Below, piece after piece: positions 3 through 33,392 of a DNA stretch of 37,820 nt. The stretch lies in IMG/VR virus record IMGVR_UViG_3300037285_000140, positions 1 to 37,820 of that record. One strand, written 5' to 3'. The notes under the pieces are model-generated. The model did no database searches. It worked only from the letters and a program-made list of their open reading frames with translations, and was not told the origin of the DNA. Within the stretch, counting starts at the first letter, position 1. Each line of letters opens with the position of its first letter. This DNA is from a virus. The translations under genes and the position numbers were made by a program.

Positions 3-518
3 ACTTATCGTTTTAGATCATCGTCGACTGTGGACTTTAGATTTGTCGAAGAAGCTGACGAAATATATAAAATACTTCACAGCGCATCAGGGTATCTGAT
101 GCGCTGTGAGCACCGCACTATGATAATTTATAGCAACGACAAGAATATGTTGCTTGACATAGGTAAAAAGATATCAACCGACGAAGTAGAACTCTGGGAG
201 CCAGATAAAGCTGTTGTAAAGTTCCTAACAAGTAATGCTGATATAATTGTTATTGACAAGCCAACTGATTTTCCTTTTAAGATAACGTTTGGTCGCGAGG
301 CAGGTTCGCCTGCATTGGCGACATGGATCGACAATAATACAGATAAAGTCAAGATAGGATCGGTTCTTCTTGGAAATTTGCGTGCGGGTACAAAATGGAT
401 CCAAGGGCAATATTTTTATGTCAGAGATGAGAACATTATCTTTTTACTTCAGCTGATGATTAGTACAAATATAAGCAGAATAGATAAGTTAGTATACAAA
501 GGCGATATAGATAAATAG
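3..518 (+). CDS. Conserved phage hypothetical protein, 5' end outside window
   Basis: The reading frame is open to the left edge, so the gene probably starts before base 1. The first in-frame start seen is GTG at 30, but it has no clear ribosome binding site and in-frame codons precede it. The visible part (171 residues) is soluble, mixed alpha/beta, with no signal peptide or membrane segment. I recognise no domain. It ends at TAG 516-518, overlapping a GATAAATA late-promoter box that serves the next gene. Confidence 0.7.
   Translation, partial: TYRFRSSSTVDFRFVEEADEIYKILHSASGYLMRCEHRTMIIYSNDKNMLLDIGKKISTDEVELWEPDKAVVKFLTSNADIIVIDKPTDFPFKITFGREAGSPALATWIDNNTDKVKIGSVLLGNLRAGTKWIQGQYFYVRDENIIFLLQLMISTNISRIDKLVYKGDIDK
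510..517 (+). promoter_or_regulatory. Candidate T4-type late promoter GATAAATA
   Basis: The box differs by one base from the T4 late consensus TATAAATA. It overlaps the stop codon of the first gene and lies 5 bases before the ATG at 523, so initiation about 6 bases downstream would give a nearly leaderless message. Confidence 0.5.
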
Positions 519-6646: not shown

Positions 6647-8143
6647 ATGTCATACGTCGATGCAATGTTCGACCGGAACGCTGATGTAATTAGAGTTGTT
6701 GAGAGAACAGACAATGGCAAACGCAAGTTTGTTGACTATCCTGTAAAGTACACATTTTACTACGAAGACCCTAAAGGAAAGTACAAAAGTATATTTGGAG
6801 ATCCTTTAACTAAAATTGTTTGCAAGAGCACAAAAGACTATCGAAAAGAACTTGCAATAAATCGAGACAAGAAGTTATTTGAGTCCGATATTAATCCCAT
6901 ATTCCAGTGTCTAAGCGAAAACTATGAGAATCAAGACGCGCCCAAGCTGAATGTGTGTTTCTTTGACATCGAAACTGACTTTGATCCCGAAAGAGGATTC
7001 GCGCCACCATCGGATCCATTTATGGCAATTACGGCAGTTACAGTATACTTGCAATGGATAGACGCCCTTATCACTGTTGCAATGCCGCCCAAAGGGCTCC
7101 CAATGGACCAAGCCGAAGCAATGTGCAAGGAAAGATGGGGCGACCAAGTAATGTTGTTTCCTAACGATAAGGAAGGAAACGGCGAAAGAGAAATGCTCAA
7201 AGTGTTTCTAGAACTAATCGAAGATGCTGATATCATCAGCGGATGGAACAGCGAAGGATATGATGTTCCGTATACTACAAATCGTATATCGCGCATACTA
7301 AGCAAAAATGATACTAGAAAGTTTTCACTATGGGATCAACTCCCACGCAAGAGAGAATTTGAAAAGTATGGCAAGACTGCAGAAACTTTTGATTATTCTG
7401 GTCGCGTACACTTGGACAGCCTTGAACTGTATAGAAAATATACGTATGAAGAACGTCACACATATAGACTTGATGCAATTGGTGAAATGGAAATTGGCGA
7501 GAATAAAACTGTATACGAAGGCACACTGGATCAATTGTACAACAACGACTTTGAAAAGTTTATTGAATACAATCGACAAGATACTGCATTGCTGGACAAG
7601 CTGGACAAGAAACTACGGTTTATTGATCTAGCTAATGAAATTGCACACGACAACACAGTGTTATTGCAAACTACAATGGGTGCAGTTGCAGTTACCGAAC
7701 AAGCAATTATCAATGAGTCGCACAGGCGCGGCATGCAAGTTCCAAACAGACGCAAGCACGAAGGCAACACACAAGCTGCCGGTGCATACGTAGCGTATCC
7801 TAAAAAAGGATTGCATCAATCTGTAGGATCAATGGACCTTAACTCGCTGTATCCAAGTGTAATTAGAGCACTCAACATGGCACCAGAAAGTATTATTGGG
7901 CAACTTCGCCCAATAATGACAGACGAAATGGTTCACAATGCAATGACGTTGCAGAAAAAATCATTTGCTGCGGCATGGGAAGGTCATTTTGGTACACTAG
8001 AATATGCAGCCGTAATGGAAAAGCGTAGAGATATTGACATTACTATTGACTGGGAAGACGGGCGCAGTGATGTGTTGAGTGCTGCCGAAGTAAACAGTGT
8101 TGTATTCGACAGTAACATGCCCAATATTTACTCACGAGTTTGA
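6647..8143 (+). CDS. 43: DNA polymerase gp43, N-terminal part (exonuclease and start of palm)
   Basis: 498 residues of a family B DNA polymerase. The 3'-5' exonuclease motifs are intact: Exo I FFDIETDF (about 105), Exo II IISGWNSEGYDVPY (about 197), Exo III FIEYNRQDTALLD (about 307). Polymerase motif A MDLNSLYPSVIRALN (about 398) is also present. The frame then runs into TGA at 8141-8143, while homologous sequence continues in the +1 frame (IFTHEFESVIPGLLKRWYSER). This piece lacks motifs B and C and cannot be a complete polymerase alone. Either the gene is truly split here, or a +1 frameshift restores it, or the assembly has an indel. T4-like phages with split gene 43 exist. The start has the strong site GTGGAG and a candidate autoregulatory hairpin. 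Confidence 0.9.
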   Translation: MSYVDAMFDRNADVIRVVERTDNGKRKFVDYPVKYTFYYEDPKGKYKSIFGDPLTKIVCKSTKDYRKELAINRDKKLFESDINPIFQCLSENYENQDAPKLNVCFFDIETDFDPERGFAPPSDPFMAITAVTVYLQWIDALITVAMPPKGLPMDQAEAMCKERWGDQVMLFPNDKEGNGEREMLKVFLELIEDADIISGWNSEGYDVPYTTNRISRILSKNDTRKFSLWDQLPRKREFEKYGKTAETFDYSGRVHLDSLELYRKYTYEERHTYRLDAIGEMEIGENKTVYEGTLDQLYNNDFEKFIEYNRQDTALLDKLDKKLRFIDLANEIAHDNTVLLQTTMGAVAVTEQAIINESHRRGMQVPNRRKHEGNTQAAGAYVAYPKKGLHQSVGSMDLNSLYPSVIRALNMAPESIIGQLRPIMTDEMVHNAMTLQKKSFAAAWEGHFGTLEYAAVMEKRRDIDITIDWEDGRSDVLSAAEVNSVVFDSNMPNIYSRV

Positions 8144-8822
8144 ATCTGTTATTCCTGGTTTATTAAAGAGGTGGTACTCAGAACGTAAGGAATTACAAAA
8201 AAGGTTAAAGAAAGCAATTGATGCAAAGAACGAAGCAGAAATTGTGTTCTGGGACAAGCGCCAGTTGGTAAAGAAGATTAACCTTAACTCGCTGTATGGT
8301 GCTATTCTTAATCCAGGTTGTAGATTCTTTGACAAGCGCATCGGACAATCAACTACATTAACTGGTAGACAGATTGTTAAGCATATGAGTGCAAAGGTCA
8401 ACGAAATTATTACAGGCGAATATGATCATATAGGCAAGGCTGTTATTTACGGCGACACTGACTCGTGTATAGCAGATTCGGTAATCGAGACTTCATTAGG
8501 AGATATGACCATTGAAAGCCTATTCAATAGGCTGGAAATTAAAACTAAAAATGGAGACAAGGAATACGCACACGACGACGATGTAATGGTAATGTCATAC
8601 GATAGAGAACGCAACGAACCATATATGGGTCATATTAATTATGTGTATCGCCACAAAGTCTCCAAGGATTTATATGAAATTGAGGATTTAGACGGGAATA
8701 TAGTTACAGTAACCGAAGATCATTCAGTAATGGTCGAACGCAACGGTGAATTAATAGAAGTTAAACCTCAGGAAATCGACGAAGGCGATATTATAATAAC
8801 ACTTAATATTCATCATACCTGA
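8097..8822 (+). CDS. 43: DNA polymerase gp43, middle part fused to N-terminal split intein
   Basis: The +1 frame continuation of gp43. It carries the palm/fingers segment with motif B KKINLNSLYGAILNPG and motif C YGDTD. At the latter point the sequence turns into an intein N-half (8463 onward) and ends at TGA 8820-8822. A GTG at 8097 could start an independent polypeptide, overlapping the N-terminal part by 47 bases, but no good ribosome binding site precedes it. Functional polymerase requires protein trans-splicing with the C-terminal part encoded at 9812-10894. Confidence 0.85.
   Translation: MLYSTVTCPIFTHEFESVIPGLLKRWYSERKELQKRLKKAIDAKNEAEIVFWDKRQLVKKINLNSLYGAILNPGCRFFDKRIGQSTTLTGRQIVKHMSAKVNEIITGEYDHIGKAVIYGDTDSCIADSVIETSLGDMTIESLFNRLEIKTKNGDKEYAHDDDVMVMSYDRERNEPYMGHINYVYRHKVSKDLYEIEDLDGNIVTVTEDHSVMVERNGELIEVKPQEIDEGDIIITLNIHHT
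8463..8819 (+). other. N-terminal split intein in polymerase motif C
   Basis: The intein starts within YGDTDS. Taking the TCG Ser at 8463 as residue 1 places the block A Asp-Ser (SCIADSVIE) at the usual positions 5-6 and gives a spliced YGDTD/SVYFS, the normal motif C. The Cys at 8466 is the alternative first residue. Block B is VTVTEDHSVMV, with the TxxH motif. A stop follows after about 119 residues with no endonuclease domain fused. Confidence 0.88.
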
Positions 8823-8828
8823 TAAATA
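8821..8828 (+). promoter_or_regulatory. Candidate late promoter GATAAATA before the homing endonuclease
   Basis: The box overlaps the stop of the N-intein frame and lies 33 bases before the endonuclease ATG, which has its own AAAGGA ribosome binding site. Late expression of a homing endonuclease is also known in T4. Confidence 0.6.
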
Positions 8829-8861
8829 CTATGGAGCAAGCACCGTAAGTAAAGGAATAAT

Positions 8862-9815
8862 ATGCCAAAATGTCTAGAATGTGGATTTGAAGCAAGTAGA
8901 TTGCAGTGGACCCACTTTAAATATAACTGTACAGGACGGTTTGCTTCAGGAAAAGAATATAAAGGTATCTACCCTGACGCAAAACTAGTCGACGATAAAT
9001 TAGCAAAAAAAACCGCTGTTACAAAATCAAACCTAATCAAAAAATACGGCGATCAGGAAGGAAACGAAAGGTGGACATCTTATATAACTAAGCAAGCATA
9101 TAGTAACACGTTCGAATCTAAACTCAAATCGCACGGGTGGACAAGATCAGAATTCGACGACTATAACAATAGCCGAGCTTGTACATTAGAAAATTTAATT
9201 GTTAGGCATGGAGAAGAACTTGGAATATTAAAATGGGAAGAATATGTCGAGAGACAGAGATATACTACAAGTATAGAATATTTTGTAAGTAAATATGGTA
9301 ACAAAGGTGAGTTAAAATGGAATCAATACTGCAAAGATAGAGGAAATTCACAGAATATAGAATTTATAAAACATAAATACAATCTGTCGCAGCCAGAAGC
9401 CGAGGCGTTGCTGGGGAATCGATATAGTAATAGATTTACCTCTAACGCTGAACAAACATTTTTACACAACATAGAAAAACTTATCGGAAAAGTACCGTAC
9501 AGTATAAACAGCAAACAGTATTGTATATGGTCTAATGAGTTGTCTGCTCCGTTGTTCTATGATTTAACGCACAGTGAGAAAAAGAAGATCATAGAATACA
9601 ATGGAGATTACTGGCACTGCAATCCTGAAAAATATAATTCAGATTTTATCATTAAACAATCAGGAGTAACAGCAAAAGAAGTATGGTCTAGAGATAAAAT
9701 TAAATTAGAAGAAGCAAAAAAACGTGGATTTGATGTAATGGTAGTGTGGGATAGACACTACACAGAAAATACTAAACTAGTAGAACAACAAATATTAAAA
9801 TGGTGGAACAAATGA
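8862..9815 (+). CDS. Vsr-like (EDxHD-type) homing endonuclease inside the fractured polymerase gene
   Basis: 317 residues. An N-terminal zinc-finger-like segment (C4, C7, H18, C23) precedes three imperfect repeats of the form KYGxxEGxxKWxxYxxxQ (residues about 57-83, 111-137, 138-165), probably DNA-binding. The C-terminal nuclease resembles Vsr-type folds: AEQTF (E197), LFYDLTH (D234), IIEYNGDYWHCNP (H252), and SRDKIKLEEAKKRGFDVMVVW (D278). This E-D-H-D set is that of the endonuclease family known to sit between split-intein halves in fractured genes. It should cut intein-less polymerase alleles at motif C and so spread the intein cassette. The ATG at 8862 has an AAAGGA site; the stop overlaps the next start. 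Confidence 0.88.
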   Translation: MPKCLECGFEASRLQWTHFKYNCTGRFASGKEYKGIYPDAKLVDDKLAKKTAVTKSNLIKKYGDQEGNERWTSYITKQAYSNTFESKLKSHGWTRSEFDDYNNSRACTLENLIVRHGEELGILKWEEYVERQRYTTSIEYFVSKYGNKGELKWNQYCKDRGNSQNIEFIKHKYNLSQPEAEALLGNRYSNRFTSNAEQTFLHNIEKLIGKVPYSINSKQYCIWSNELSAPLFYDLTHSEKKKIIEYNGDYWHCNPEKYNSDFIIKQSGVTAKEVWSRDKIKLEEAKKRGFDVMVVWDRHYTENTKLVEQQILKWWNK

Positions 9816-10039
9816 AAGATAAATTAATCAAGATATTATTAGCAAACACTAAAGAAGAAGTTGCTGTTTCTGTAAAGGACTTCCTGGATGGAGTTGGATC
9901 TAAGAAACTAAGTTTATCCCGAGGTAAAGTTAAAAGAGTTACCAAAGTTCGAAAAGCTAACGACGAATACGTATACGATATCGGAATGAAAAATAGTAAT
10001 CAGCCTTGGTTCTTTGCTAACAACATCCTAATCCATAAC
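9812..10039 (+). other. C-terminal split intein
   Basis: 76 codons. Blocks F and G read DEYVYDIGMKNSNQPWFFANNILIHN in two adjoining parts, with penultimate His and terminal Asn, followed by Ser as the +1 nucleophile. The half is longer than the 35-45 residues typical of C-inteins, so the break lies where an endonuclease domain would be in a full intein. Confidence 0.88.
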
Positions 10040-10894
10040 TCAGTCTACTTTAGTGCATACAACATGTTAAAAGACGATATCGATGCAGGAAAAGTACCCT
10101 GGGATACTGACAGCGTTATTAAACTGTATGATCAGATAGCCGACGAGACCAATAAGTCGTTCCCGGCGTTTATGGGTGCATCATTTCATTGCCCAAAGAA
10201 GCGTGCCGAAGTTATTGCAGCAGGTAGAGAAATTGTTGCAGAAGCAGGACTGTTCATCACCAAGAAAAGATATGCAGTACTAGTAGTTGACAACGAAGGT
10301 GAGCGCAAGGATGTTGACGGTAAGCCAGGAAAGATCAAAGCGCTAGGACTTGATCTTAAAAGATCAGATACTCCAGTGTTTATGCAAAAGTTCCTAAGTG
10401 AATTACTGACAATGGTTCTTCTGAAGCATCCTGAGCATGACGTGCTCGATGCAATTACCAAGTTTAGAAGAGAATTCAAGGATCGTCCTGGATACGAAAA
10501 AGGTTCGCCAAAACGTGCAAACAACATTCAAGCGTACCAACGCAAAGAAGCAAGTTTAGGAAGAGCAAATATGCCCGGACACGTTCGAGCAAGTATCAAC
10601 TGGAATACACTCAAGCGCATGAATGGTGACAAACACTCGCAGGAGATTGTAGACGGTATGAAGGTTATTGTTTGTAAGGTAAAAGCAAATCCGCTAGGAT
10701 ATACCAGTGTTGCTTTTCCAACAGACGAACTGCGCATGCCAAATTGGTTCAAAGAGTTGCCATTTGACGATAATGCAATGGAGTCAACCATCATTGACAA
10801 CAAGCTAGATAACCTGATTGGTGTGTTAAACTATGATTTACAAAGCACACTATTGAACAATACATTTAGCTCACTATTTGATTTTGGGGACTAG
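9812..10894 (+). CDS. 43: C-terminal split intein fused to DNA polymerase gp43 C-terminal part
   Basis: 360 residues. The first 76 form the C-intein, ending in NILIHN, followed by +1 Ser and the extein SVYFSAYN, which completes motif C. The remainder is the palm and thumb of gp43 (KKRYAVLVV, GLDLKRSDTP), ending in SSLFDFGD, which resembles the T4 gp43 C-terminal clamp-binding peptide. I chose ATG 9812 (ATGA overlap with the endonuclease stop, GGTGGA ahead) over ATG 9800. Together with the frame at 8097 this gives a trans-spliced polymerase; the clamp it should bind is encoded at 12860. Confidence 0.9.
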   Translation: MKDKLIKILLANTKEEVAVSVKDFLDGVGSKKLSLSRGKVKRVTKVRKANDEYVYDIGMKNSNQPWFFANNILIHNSVYFSAYNMLKDDIDAGKVPWDTDSVIKLYDQIADETNKSFPAFMGASFHCPKKRAEVIAAGREIVAEAGLFITKKRYAVLVVDNEGERKDVDGKPGKIKALGLDLKRSDTPVFMQKFLSELLTMVLLKHPEHDVLDAITKFRREFKDRPGYEKGSPKRANNIQAYQRKEASLGRANMPGHVRASINWNTLKRMNGDKHSQEIVDGMKVIVCKVKANPLGYTSVAFPTDELRMPNWFKELPFDDNAMESTIIDNKLDNLIGVLNYDLQSTLLNNTFSSLFDFGD

Positions 10895-14081: not shown

Positions 14082-15687
14082 TTTAACTGAATCACAAAAC
14101 GACTATGCAGTATTTTTACCTAGTATAAGTGGGTTCTACGGTACGTTTATTGGAAAGCAAAGATTTGGGGAGTATGTCGATCCAGCTCGTATTCCCCAAG
14201 GACTCGGCGAAATGGAAGCTCTTAACTTTTTGAATCCTGACAAAGGCGCATTCAACTATAAATGGGCATTATACTCTGCAGGACACGCAGAACTCGATGT
14301 AAATAAACACAGCGAAAAAGAAGACATGGTTCGCAACAGAGACAGAGAAAATACATGGTTACTAGGCGACTCCGGAGGATTCCAAATTGCCAAAGGACTC
14401 TGGGAAGGCGACTGGACTGATGCAAACTGTCCCAAAGCTGCAAAGAAGCGCGAGCTAGTAATTAACTGGATGGAAGAGTACATGGATTACGGAATGATGT
14501 TGGATATTCCAACGTGGACATTCCAGAATCCTAAAGCAGCAAATGCAGCCAACATTCACAGTTACCAGGATGCTGTAGATGCAACGCACATTAATGCAAA
14601 GTACTATATGGACAATATGCGCGGTAACTTTAAAGTGCTAAATGTGTTGCAAGGTAGCAACCATGCAGATGCCGATCATTGGTACAACGAGTTCAAAGAC
14701 TATTCGGATCCTGCAAAGTATCCCGATACCCACTTCAGAGGTTGGGCAATGGGCGGTCAGAATATGTGTGACGTACACTTAATTCTGCGCAGGCTAGTGC
14801 ATATGATACACGACGGGTTACTTGAAGAAGGATTGCATGACGTTATGCACTTTCTTGGTACAAGTAAACTAGAATGGGCTACACTGCTAACCGACATACA
14901 ACGATCTGTTCGCGAGCATCACAACAAGAACTTTATGATCACATATGATTGTGCAAGCCCGTTCCTTGCAACTGCAAACGGACAAATATATCACAGCATT
15001 AGAATCAAAGATCGAGGCAAGTGGAGTTACATGATGTCTCCGAGCATTGATGATAAGGATTATTCAACCGATACTAGATTGTTCAGTGATGTATTTGTTG
15101 AACGAAAAACTGCCGATGCACACAAGATTGCAAAGAATCAAGCAGAACTTAACCAATTAATAAGTAAGATTGCATTTGAAGACTCTCCGATTAGTCGCCA
15201 TTGCTTGGCTAAAGATATTTGTATCTATGCACCCGGTGATCTAAATAAAATTGGCAAAGAAGGTCGTACCAGTTGGGACAGCTTTTCTTATGCATTGCAG
15301 ATGGGTCACAATGTGTGGATGCACATTGAAAGTACACAACGCGCAAATAGAGAATACGATAATGGCAAGTTTCCGTACATGTTGATCGACGAGAAGTTTG
15401 AACGTACTACATTTAGAGATGTAGTTGATGAAATCTTTAGTCTTAAGGACAAGCAAAAGAGTCTAGACAAAATTGAAGAATATCATAGATTTTGGATGCA
15501 AGTTATTGGCACTCGGTTGAACATCGGCAAGAAGGCTGTTAATGCAAGTACACAATTTGGTAATAACTTTGATGTAAATGCCGAATGCACAACAGAAGCA
15601 CTAAGTGAAGAAGAAGTAGAACAATGGAGCAAAAAGAAAAAAGAAGAGTTTGCTCCTACTTTACCAGATAACCTGTGGGACTTTTAA
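14071..15687 (+). CDS. dpdA: DpdA/TGT-like guanine transglycosylase
   Basis: 538 residues. LLGDSGGFQIAKG (D100, S101, G102) matches the TGT-fold DSGGFQ motif holding the catalytic or base-binding Asp. LDIPTWT (D145) and RGWAMGGQN near 225 correspond to further active-site strands of the TIM barrel. tRNA-guanine transglycosylases are usually about 380 residues with a CxCxxC...H zinc site; I see no such site, and the longer form matches phage DpdA-type proteins that insert preQ0-type 7-deazaguanines into DNA. folE and queE in the same window supply precursors. The DNA substrate is inferred, not shown. Confidence 0.75.
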   Translation: MQSNLTESQNDYAVFLPSISGFYGTFIGKQRFGEYVDPARIPQGLGEMEALNFLNPDKGAFNYKWALYSAGHAELDVNKHSEKEDMVRNRDRENTWLLGDSGGFQIAKGLWEGDWTDANCPKAAKKRELVINWMEEYMDYGMMLDIPTWTFQNPKAANAANIHSYQDAVDATHINAKYYMDNMRGNFKVLNVLQGSNHADADHWYNEFKDYSDPAKYPDTHFRGWAMGGQNMCDVHLILRRLVHMIHDGLLEEGLHDVMHFLGTSKLEWATLLTDIQRSVREHHNKNFMITYDCASPFLATANGQIYHSIRIKDRGKWSYMMSPSIDDKDYSTDTRLFSDVFVERKTADAHKIAKNQAELNQLISKIAFEDSPISRHCLAKDICIYAPGDLNKIGKEGRTSWDSFSYALQMGHNVWMHIESTQRANREYDNGKFPYMLIDEKFERTTFRDVVDEIFSLKDKQKSLDKIEEYHRFWMQVIGTRLNIGKKAVNASTQFGNNFDVNAECTTEALSEEEVEQWSKKKKEEFAPTLPDNLWDF

Positions 15688-23620: not shown

Positions 23621-23628
23621 TATTTATC
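23621..23628 (-). promoter_or_regulatory. Candidate late promoter for the HNH gene
   Basis: GATAAATA on the minus strand, 32 bases before the HNH ATG at 23589. Its expected start point leaves the AGAGG ribosome binding site in the message. Confidence 0.55.
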
Positions 23629-23642
23629 AATCTGGATGCTGT

Positions 23643-23650
23643 GATAAATA
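23643..23650 (+). promoter_or_regulatory. Candidate late promoter before the folE remnant and queE
   Basis: GATAAATA 21 bases before the ATG at 23671, with GAGGAA as ribosome binding site in between. Confidence 0.55.
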
Positions 23651-26789: not shown

Positions 26790-27260
26790 ATGAAAGCAAA
26801 AGAAATATTAAAAGGCAAGTTTTGGATCCTTGAAGAGCACGGGGTCCGCATAGGAACACTGAGCAAAGACGAGGAGAAATTTATCTTTTCTAAAAAGGGA
26901 GAAGTAAGTTTTTACAAAAACGAGACGCAACTTGCCAAGCGGTTTGGCAACAACCCGCTAACAGTAAAAATTATTGCTCCTGCAGCTGAGTCCATCAATT
27001 TAGATGTACACGGGTTTCCAACAAGATCACATGCCTATAACGGGTTGTATGACATTTCTCGCAAGCTTCCGTTGTTTACAAAAAGTGAAAAGTCAAAAAG
27101 TGTGTATTGTGCAGGATATTACCTGATCAAGTTTAACGTTAACTGGCTTAAGAGTTTTTGTCCTAAGTTGATTACCATCGAACGGAACGAGTACGTCGGT
27201 CCATTTAAAACAGAGATTGAAATGAAAGCAGCGTTATCTAATGTCAGTAGAACCAATTAA
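26790..27260 (+). CDS. Conserved marine-phage hypothetical protein
   Basis: 156 residues from ATG 26790, 1 base after rnh. The N-terminal FWILEEHGVRIGTLSKDEEKF is a pattern I associate with marine T4-like phages. No catalytic motif is recognised. It overlaps the next gene by 20 bases. Confidence 0.65.
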   Translation: MKAKEILKGKFWILEEHGVRIGTLSKDEEKFIFSKKGEVSFYKNETQLAKRFGNNPLTVKIIAPAAESINLDVHGFPTRSHAYNGLYDISRKLPLFTKSEKSKSVYCAGYYLIKFNVNWLKSFCPKLITIERNEYVGPFKTEIEMKAALSNVSRTN

Positions 27261-27486
27261 TACATTACCAATACAGCAATTTATTCAAAAAGTCAAAGCA
27301 GCTGAAGCTAGCAACTCCAAAGAAGTTAGACTAGATGCTGCTACTGCCAAGAGCCTTGCATTTACACTAGGTATAGTGATGAGCAGATTGCACGGAGACT
27401 TGGAAAGATTTGTAACTGAAAATGCAGCTAGCAACAGCGACGAAGTTATTAGAGTTGAGCTCGACGGTGGAGATATCTGGCAATAG
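27241..27486 (+). CDS. Small conserved helical protein
   Basis: 81 residues. The central amphipathic helix pair (RLDAATAKSLAFTLGIVMSRLHGDLE) is typical of small phage proteins of unknown function. Its stop lies 6 bases before the hairpin of the next gene. Confidence 0.65.
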   Translation: MSVEPINTLPIQQFIQKVKAAEASNSKEVRLDAATAKSLAFTLGIVMSRLHGDLERFVTENAASNSDEVIRVELDGGDIWQ

Positions 27487-27491
27487 CATAA

Positions 27492-27533
27492 GTGCTCCGT
27501 TATAGATAAATATATACGTATATAACGGAGCAC
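27492..27533 (+). promoter_or_regulatory. RBS-masking hairpin with late promoter in its loop
   Basis: GTGCTCCGTTATA (27492-27504) and TATAACGGAGCAC (27521-27533) form a perfect 13-bp stem. The loop contains GATAAATA (27505-27512). The right arm holds the GGAG ribosome binding site, 8 bases before the ATG at 27539. Late transcripts would start near 27518, without the left arm, leaving the site free. Confidence 0.8.
27505..27512 (+). promoter_or_regulatory. Candidate late promoter GATAAATA
   Basis: Located in the loop of the hairpin 27492-27533; the predicted start point lies just before the right arm. Confidence 0.65.
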
Positions 27534-27538
27534 GCCTT

Positions 27539-27829
27539 ATGAGTCGACCAAAGCCAACAATATTGTTAGAATCTATTAACAGCCAAACTTACAGATGTGA
27601 GCAAGTTCTAGAAGCTGCCGGAATATGGGCAGTCTTTTATAAAGGGTTACCCTTTAACTTAAAAAGTTCAAATTCTCTAACACATTATCCTGGTCCTAAA
27701 TATAAAAAAACTAGTTTCTCAAATCCCGGACACGCTTATAATTTAGCCAAGAAGCTTAACTCAACATTTAGATCAAGTGACTTTGCTGTGTTTGAATTGT
27801 CATCTACTATTAATGAAGTTAAAGAATGA
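27539..27829 (+). CDS. Hypothetical late protein
   Basis: 96 residues, basic, with SRPKPTILLESINSQTYRCEQVLEA at the N-terminus. No domain is recognised. The hairpin/late-promoter arrangement upstream predicts translation only from late transcripts. It overlaps the next gene by ATGA. Confidence 0.65.
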   Translation: MSRPKPTILLESINSQTYRCEQVLEAAGIWAVFYKGLPFNLKSSNSLTHYPGPKYKKTSFSNPGHAYNLAKKLNSTFRSSDFAVFELSSTINEVKE

Positions 27830-28212
27830 ATAAAATAGTGTATACTAAAGTGTTTTTACAACAGTTGGGTAAAACGTCAAATGATGATTCTGCAAAAGAA
27901 TACCTTCCACTGTGGTGGCAGAATACTCGTAACAAAGAAGGCAGCGGACTACGCCTAACTGACTTAGGGTTAGAAGTTGTTAATCAACTAGACATATCAA
28001 CTTACGACATACCGTTTGCGCCCGACATGCCGCTTACTACACAAGTCATCATTTTTTTAGACAAGTTTATAGATTGCCCGTATCACCTAGACAAACGCGG
28101 CATACACGTTACTAACGAGCGTAAAGCCGTCGAGTTAGCTCTCTTTAGCGGAGACTTGCGTAAATACGGCATTGCAAAGGCGCTGACTAGGTCTAAGAAT
28201 CTTAACAACTAA
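27826..28212 (+). CDS. Conserved marine-phage hypothetical protein
   Basis: 128 residues. LPLWWQNTRNKEGSGLRLTDLG, FLDKFIDCPYHL and ALFSGDLRKYG form a pattern I associate with a common T4-like marine-phage family of unknown function. Coupled to the upstream late gene by ATGA. Confidence 0.7.
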   Translation: MNKIVYTKVFLQQLGKTSNDDSAKEYLPLWWQNTRNKEGSGLRLTDLGLEVVNQLDISTYDIPFAPDMPLTTQVIIFLDKFIDCPYHLDKRGIHVTNERKAVELALFSGDLRKYGIAKALTRSKNLNN

Positions 28213-30800: not shown

Positions 30801-31100
30801 ATGAACATGAAAAGCGTTAATCCACTTAACATTCATGAAGTAAGGAGGACATTATTTTGTCCTCCTTACTTCGAGAAAGCTCCGTTGCCGTGTGCAACCG
30901 GTGGGCCATCGACGCGAGGAAGCGGTGTTGTAAATAGACTAATTGTTAGTTGGGTAAATGATAATCTAACAGGTCGTTTCTATATTGGTTTATCTGTTGA
31001 TGTTACTAGCAAATTTCCTGTTCGTACAGAGACATATATTGCATTTGAAAATCCTAGCGAATTGACTATTTTTATGCTATCGTGTCCACATCTGAATTAA
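30801..31100 (+). CDS. Hypothetical protein, start region inside a long hairpin
   Basis: 99 residues from ATG 30801 (GAGG 9 bases ahead). The first 25 codons include a perfect 15-bp hairpin, so the N-terminal sequence may not be protein-constrained, but no in-frame downstream start is convincing. The body (VVNRLIVSWVNDNLTGRFYIG) is beta-rich. No domain recognised. Confidence 0.5.
   Translation: MNMKSVNPLNIHEVRRTLFCPPYFEKAPLPCATGGPSTRGSGVVNRLIVSWVNDNLTGRFYIGLSVDVTSKFPVRTETYIAFENPSELTIFMLSCPHLN
30837..30872 (+). repeat. Perfect 15-bp hairpin
   Basis: GAAGTAAGGAGGACA (30837-30851) and TGTCCTCCTTACTTC (30858-30872) pair fully around TTATTT. The left arm contains a consensus AAGGAGG Shine-Dalgarno sequence that would be buried. 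No U-tract follows. Confidence 0.85.
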
Positions 31101-32512: not shown

Positions 32513-32513
32513 T

Positions 32514-32565
32514 ATTTCTCCTAGAGTGATAAATATATGTAACTATAATATCACCTAGGAGAAAT
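32514..32565 (+). promoter_or_regulatory. RBS-masking hairpin with late promoter inside
   Basis: ATTTCTCCTAGAGTGATA (32514-32531) pairs with TATCACCTAGGAGAAAT (32549-32565), 17 base pairs with one bulged A. The right arm contains the AGGAG ribosome binding site of the tail-fibre gene. GATAAATA (32528-32535) spans the end of the left arm and the loop, so late transcripts starting near 32541 would lack the left arm. Confidence 0.8.
32528..32535 (+). promoter_or_regulatory. Candidate late promoter GATAAATA for the tail fibre
   Basis: Lies within the RBS-masking hairpin, 36 bases before the ATG at 32571. Confidence 0.65.
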
Positions 32566-32570
32566 ACAAC

Positions 32571-33392
32571 ATGTCATTGAGATTAAGACGCGGCGTCGAT
32601 GCCGAGAGAGCAGCAATTGTCTTTGATGAAGGCGAACTTGTTTATACAACAGACATCAAAGAACTTTATGCAGGTGATGGTGCTACTGCTGGAGGAATAC
32701 TTGTTTCTAGTGCGCAGATTCCCGGAGCATTGATTCAAAATCTAGACCTTGGTGAAAACGATATAGTAGGCACAGGAAATATTGACATTAGTGGTAATGT
32801 GACTGCTAACAGGCTTATAGGATCAGTATTAGGAGATCTATCAGGATCTGTATTTGCTGACGATTCAACATTGATTATTAATGGTCAAACATCCGTTATT
32901 ACAGGCGATCTTGTTGGAAGTGTTGTGTCCGATGATAATAATAATTTTCTTTATGCCGATACAAATAGTACACCATTAAATATTTTTAAATATAGCGGAA
33001 CGCTTACTAACCCTACTGATTCAGCAGACTTTGCAAAAATAGGCATAAGATTTGGATCATATAATACTGCTGCTGCTGGCTATGTTACCGAATCGTTGAT
33101 TTATTCGTATCATCAAACAGCAGGAGGAGGGTTAATAGCATTAGCGCCGGTGGCAGCAGATAACACAACATTTTTTGAGACTGCACTTGAATTAGATGGT
33201 AATGCACAAACTATGTCAGTTTCCGCCCCAAATGGAACTAGTTTTAATGGTGCTATTACTCCAGGTGTGTATGCAGATGACACTGCACGAGATACTGCGA
33301 TTACTACTCCGCTAGCAGGAATGATGGTATTTAACACTACTGGTACTAAGTTTCAAGGATACACCGGAGTAGCGTGGGTAAACTTAAACTAA
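32571..33392 (+). CDS. Tail-fibre-like protein
   Basis: 273 residues. The start SLRLRRGVDAERAAIVFDEGELVYTTDIKELYAGDGATAGG is given here as one continuous N-terminal domain in two overlapping motifs, LRLRRGVDAERAAIVFDEGE and YTTDIKELYAGDG, typical of short tail-fibre or tropism-determinant N-termini of marine phages. The middle is Gly/Asn/Ser-rich beta repeat. The end GMMVFNTTGTKFQGYTGVAW is a common fibre C-terminal element. Host binding is the likely role. Its late promoter and hairpin fit a virion protein. Confidence 0.8.
   Translation: MSLRLRRGVDAERAAIVFDEGELVYTTDIKELYAGDGATAGGILVSSAQIPGALIQNLDLGENDIVGTGNIDISGNVTANRLIGSVLGDLSGSVFADDSTLIINGQTSVITGDLVGSVVSDDNNNFLYADTNSTPLNIFKYSGTLTNPTDSADFAKIGIRFGSYNTAAAGYVTESLIYSYHQTAGGGLIALAPVAADNTTFFETALELDGNAQTMSVSAPNGTSFNGAITPGVYADDTARDTAITTPLAGMMVFNTTGTKFQGYTGVAWVNLN

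Follow-up and report, generated by a model that had tools for sequence, protein, structure and literature searches.

The gene that starts at position 27539 of the DNA analyzed here is very probably controlled by a cis-acting switch that would allow its translation only late in infection. The DNA (the window), a contig fragment of 37,820 bases, comes from a large T4-like environmental phage. Positions 27492-27504 and 27521-27533 of the window form a perfect inverted repeat, complementary in 13 of 13 base pairs, which encloses a T4-type late promoter box. A preliminary description of the window had pointed out the perfect 13-bp stem before the gene and the GGAG in its right arm, and both are present. 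Its interpretation of the arrangement as a regulatory device is now supported by RNA folds, T4 positive controls, the presence of a gp55-type sigma factor in relatives, and conservation among homologues that have unrelated stems. The elements of the region are:

27241-27486, + strand: upstream ORF, 81 amino acids, no assigned function, stop codon 5 nt before the hairpin
27487-27491, + strand: CATAA, 5' half of an outer helix, pairs with TTATG (27537-27541) over a 3-nt bulge (GCC) in the RNA fold
27492-27504, + strand: 5' arm GTGCTCCGTTATA, wholly 5' of the promoter box
27505-27512, + strand: late promoter box GATAAATA, T4-type (NATAAATA), in the hairpin loop, assigned by sequence and conservation
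27518, + strand: G, expected +1, placed by T4 spacing with the box at -13 to -6
27521-27533, + strand: 3' arm TATAACGGAGCAC, includes the Shine-Dalgarno sequence
27527-27530, + strand: Shine-Dalgarno (SD) sequence GGAG in the 3' arm, 8 nt 5' of the ATG at 27539
27539-27829, + strand: ORF of 96 amino acids (MSRPKPTILLE...), member of a widespread uncharacterised phage family
27826-28212, + strand: ORF of 128 amino acids, overlaps the stop codon of the 96-aa ORF (ATGA)

The hairpin loop is 16 nt long. It consists of GATAAATA, as reported previously, followed by TATACGTA, which the preliminary description had omitted. The window holds three perfect stems of 13 bp or more (loops of 3-30 nt), compared to none in 100 dinucleotide shuffles, and GATAAATA occurs seven times, compared to 2.3 expected occurrences. 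In the predicted fold of a read-through RNA (27475-27560, -24.7 kcal/mol, z -4.0), the SD sequence and the AUG are both paired, the latter through the CATAA/TTATG outer helix. Neither this helix nor the overlap of ORF 27826-28212 with the stop codon had been noticed in the preliminary description. The 5' arm lies wholly 5' of the promoter box, and is therefore missing from the late transcript. The earlier estimate of a start at about 27518 agrees with the spacing rule, and the RNA from this position has a predicted fold of only -1.6 kcal/mol and is nearly unstructured. With folding energies predicted at 37 °C and the +1 position borrowed from T4, opening of the SD-AUG region costs 16.2 kcal/mol in the read-through RNA, 2.5 kcal/mol in the late RNA, and 6.4 kcal/mol when the upstream part is shuffled.

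T4-type late promoters have the sequence TATAAATA at -13 to -6 (PMC1524935), the cyanophage late promoter is NATAAATA (PMC2984593), and late promoters are read by gp55 (PMC2988020). The gp55 family (phrog_234) is represented in eight of nine large relatives (E about 1e-21 to 1e-24), and no gp55 gene was found in the 37.8-kb window fragment. The switch may operate as follows. Before late transcription, RNA over 27539 would be read-through from upstream genes, and as the upstream ORF stops only 5 nt 5' of the hairpin, this RNA would run into it. With both arms present the RNA would fold (13 bp plus 5 bp) and bury the SD sequence and the start codon, so that ribosomes could not initiate. Late in infection, the gp55-type sigma factor would initiate at GATAAATA inside the hairpin, and the resulting RNA from about 27518, devoid of the 5' arm, would be translated. 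The ORF at 27826-28212 is probably translationally coupled to the 96-aa ORF, hence under the same switch, and the two overlapping genes would probably be switched together. We infer the presence of the read-through RNA, the start at 27518 and the translational block in vivo. Early expression of the 96-aa protein may be avoided because it would be harmful or wasteful.

Regulation by the same logic has been described by Uzan and Miller for the T4 genes e, soc, 49 and I-TevI (PMC3014915). The window case therefore belongs to a known kind, from which it differs in the gene, in having the box located in the loop, and in how far the stems have turned over. For other homing endonucleases, such structures have been shown or implied, and for I-TevII and segB they have been predicted or implicated (PMC3014915). 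As in T4 e, 49 and I-TevI, a hairpin in the read-through RNA hides the ribosome binding site, and the 5' strand is missing from the late RNA. The computed opening costs are also similar, with read-through and late values of 13.6 and 4.0 kcal/mol for e, 12.7 and 3.2 kcal/mol for 49, and 13.1 and 2.9 kcal/mol for I-TevI. However, the gene is a different one, without detected homology to these three, and the promoter box, which in these T4 genes is located in or beside the 5' arm, is in the loop in the window, with the arm wholly upstream. The geometry closest to that of the window is found in T4 I-TevII, where CCTCGTAT/ATACGAGG closes around TATAAATA. I-TevII (12.9 and 0.4 kcal/mol) and segB (15.8 and 5.6 kcal/mol) are homing endonucleases, whereas no endonuclease match was found for the 96-aa protein in family, sequence or structure searches. 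In the documented soc case, the same measure gives 7.2 kcal/mol for both RNAs, because 6 bp of the arm are retained with the assumed +1. The measure thus depends on the assumed +1, and can miss real cases. The 5' arm of soc lies just 3' of the box and overlaps the start (CATGTAATT/AATTACATG). This is unlike the window, where the arm sits 5' of the promoter, but resembles the TATGCGTA/TACGCATA class of relatives.

That late promoters in general are enriched for such hairpins was considered and rejected. In 89 other genes preceded by NATAAATA, from the window and three large relatives, no excess was seen (median -0.17 kcal/mol, p=0.20). Among late-promoter genes other than 27539, those at 14624 and 126445 (+ strand) of relative G009 and at 210948 (- strand) of relative G001 exceed all shuffles for read-through sequestration.

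The arrangement is common among homologues of the 96-aa gene. More than 570 relatives of the protein are present in the viral collection, and 251 homologous leaders, collapsing to 105 clusters, were compared. In 99 of the 105 clusters, NATAAATA or a close variant is found at least 22 nt 5' of the AUG. Five of the other six have either a similar box nearer to the AUG or another variant of it, and one (L383) has no box. For each of the 99 clusters, the SD-AUG opening cost in the RNA starting at +1 was subtracted from the cost in the read-through RNA. The median difference is 5.7 kcal/mol, compared to 2.1 kcal/mol after shuffling of the upstream part (Wilcoxon p=5e-15), and 50 of the 99 clusters are individually significant at about p≤0.05, although these p-values are optimistic, as the leader clusters are phylogenetically non-independent and relatedness was not corrected for. 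The window (16.2 vs 2.5 kcal/mol) is the most extreme of the compared clusters.

In 25 of the 99 clusters, the stem has little effect. A terminator-like hairpin just 5' of the late promoter is found in 7 of these 25 weak-stem clusters, compared to 2 of 74 strong-stem clusters (p=0.0008). In the Phosso-query set alone, the counts are 6 of 19 and 0 of 28 (p=0.0025). PA5oct (L209) has such a hairpin about 66 nt 5' of the late promoter that serves the homologous gene, and others are found in the weak-stem homologues L210, L296, L298, L300 and L302. In L353, L374, L379 and L382, the box lies so near to the AUG that hardly any leader would be left on the late RNA, and no SD sequence is evident. Terminators and near-leaderless late RNAs would fit with selection for silence from upstream transcripts. 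In the window, a scan of the + strand from the upstream ORF to the ATG at 27539 detected no terminator-like site, and the region 27492-27541 does not combine a GC-rich hairpin with a T-run as intrinsic terminators do; the stem is followed by GCCTTATG.

The stem sequences and positions vary between clusters, and do not represent one inherited sequence. Examples are GTGCTCCGTTATA in the window, CACCAATCTTT/AAAGATTGGTG in L351, TATGTTTAATCT/AGATTAAACATA in L367, ATAGTGTACT/AGTACACTAT in L087, TCCGACCA/TGGTCGGA in L313, and CCAGTAA/TTACTGG in PA5oct. When the downstream half of each cluster was joined to the upstream halves of other clusters, own halves did better than swapped ones in 16 of 99 clusters at p≤0.05, with 5 expected (binomial p=3e-5), in a test that is sensitive only to arms strictly 5' of the promoter. 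In the commonest class, TATRYGTA straddles the expected start, and its partner TACRYATA reaches into the AUG. Own pairing in this class exceeds that with permuted partners (p=0.0005, small effect), and changes in fixed columns are compensatory (pair 4 is G-C in 14 and A-T in 10 cases, pair 5 is C-G in 22 and T-A in 4).

Compensatory change in relatives, suggested earlier as a check, is thus seen in the TATRYGTA/TACRYATA stem; the exact 13-bp stem of the window is absent from all fetched relatives. The nearest one, L081, encodes a protein with 83% identity and uses a TATACGTA/TACGTATA stem, which places it in the TATRYGTA/TACRYATA class. The same SD region has therefore switched its pairing partner between close relatives, and for the same reason compensatory change cannot be judged for the 13-bp stem itself. 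Taken across the leaders, pairing appears to be kept by selection at the level of the gene family rather than for the exact stem of the window. It is possible, at slightly less than even probability, that many lineages of large T4-like phages hold back expression of the 96-aa family to the late phase of infection, by insulation that has repeatedly re-evolved. Most lineages would use unrelated stems that hide the ribosome binding site in at least two geometries (arm 5' of the promoter, or overlapping the start), others a terminator immediately 5' of the late promoter, and a few near-leaderless late RNAs that lack an evident SD sequence.

The rival explanation most worth testing is coupling to the upstream ORF. 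Ribosomes that finish translation of ORF 27241-27486 could open the hairpin, so that 27539 would be expressed from read-through RNA alongside the upstream gene. The distance from the stop codon to the arm is short, 5 nt in the window and -12 to +16 nt in many clusters with upstream arms, and a ribosome terminating there would have part of the 5' arm within its footprint. However, coupling needs no late promoter in the hairpin, yet the promoter is kept in nearly all homologues. Moreover, in the stem class seen most often, the 5' arm lies 3' of the promoter and away from the stop codon, and the terminator between both genes in some relatives would sever the coupling. We therefore consider this explanation improbable. 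The inverted repeat could also act at the DNA level and bind a regulator of the late promoter, with RNA pairing being incidental. Operators are commonly laid out as a palindrome around a promoter, and the arms are alike in the majority class (TATRYGTA). Nevertheless, arms of homologues are unrelated in sequence though their pairing is kept, changes in the TATRYGTA class are compensatory, and the arms shift in position with respect to the promoter while staying with the SD-AUG region, which makes a DNA-level role very improbable. An ordinary hairpin, serving as a terminator or stabiliser of the late RNA or arising by chance, is scarcely credible in spite of other strong hairpins in the window (77-109, 30837-30872), as there is no T-run after the stem and no terminator in the scan, the 5' arm precedes the expected start and so cannot stabilise the late RNA, none of 100 shuffles has a stem this long, and the arrangement is enriched across homologues.

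The preliminary description had treated the hairpin before 27539 as the second of two cases with unrelated stems, and had taken the pair to argue for selection. The other case consists of:

32513-32566, + strand: TATTTCTCCTAG (32513-32524) with CTAGGAGAAATA (32555-32566), 12 bp plus an inner GTGATA/TATCAC of 6 bp
32571-33392, + strand: ORF of 273 amino acids behind this hairpin, weak Mtd_N match

Here, GATAAATA at 32528-32535 is partly within the 5' strand. The match of the ORF to Mtd_N, a tail-fibre/tropism-determinant N-terminal domain, is just under the Pfam cut-off. The arrangement at 32513-32566 is kept in G001 only, and more distant homologues are without it, so that it was rejected as a trait of the gene family. 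Both cases are real.

The 96-aa protein matched no PHROGs, Pfam or NCBIfam family, and no solved relative was found by sequence. AlphaFold2 models it with confidence (pLDDT 87) as a small, beta-rich fold that includes a single helix. The best Foldseek match in the PDB has an E value of 0.5, and no convincing fold was identified. Tic22 was considered as a fold relative and rejected, as its VIA-align Z of 5.0 is within background. The two good matches in BFVD are to phage proteins that are themselves uncharacterised. A megablast search of the window DNA against phage isolates gave no match. Cultured phages with a homologue are the PA5oct group (Pseudomonas aeruginosa), Phosso (Sinorhizobium), Atu_ph07 and SCTP-2.

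If the family-wide silencing is real, it would mark the 96-aa protein as one with strong selection against early production, and this uncharacterised protein would be a candidate for a function that is confined to the late phase and possibly harmful. T4 offers only a few cases (e, soc, 49, I-TevI), whereas here one gene has the arrangement in dozens of distinct leaders. As stems turn over while pairing of the SD sequence and AUG is kept, selection against early expression becomes testable by comparison alone. The homologues in the PA5oct group and in Phosso offer experimental systems. No published RNA ends for PA5oct were found in the open literature, and the MIJ3 phage paper does not contain promoter data.

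Some other features of the window deserve mention. The gene for a family B DNA polymerase is in pieces across 6647-10894 (6647-8143, 8097-8822 and 9800-10894). The piece at 8097-8822 ends with YGDTDS and then CIADSVIETSLGD... (Pfam Intein_splicing, 6.9e-8), and the piece at 9800-10894 opens with sequence ending ...ILIHN before SVYFSAY. The layout suggests that the gene is fractured, with a split intein located at YGDTDS. The ORF at 8862-9815, between polymerase pieces, belongs to phrog_22677, and judged by eye its C-terminal part resembles Vsr-like nucleases. A late promoter box of its own, GATAAATA, is present at 8821, an arrangement shared with several T4 homing endonuclease genes. Strong hairpins are found near the window start (77-109, 14 bp; 558-587, 12 bp). 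A perfect 15-bp hairpin GAAGTAAGGAGGACA/TGTCCTCCTTACTTC, with AAGGAGG in its 5' arm, lies at 30837-30872, just inside ORF 30801-31100. Finally, at 23621-23650 a 10-bp inverted repeat encloses a divergent pair of GATAAATA boxes, which lie about 20 bp from each other and face genes on both strands.
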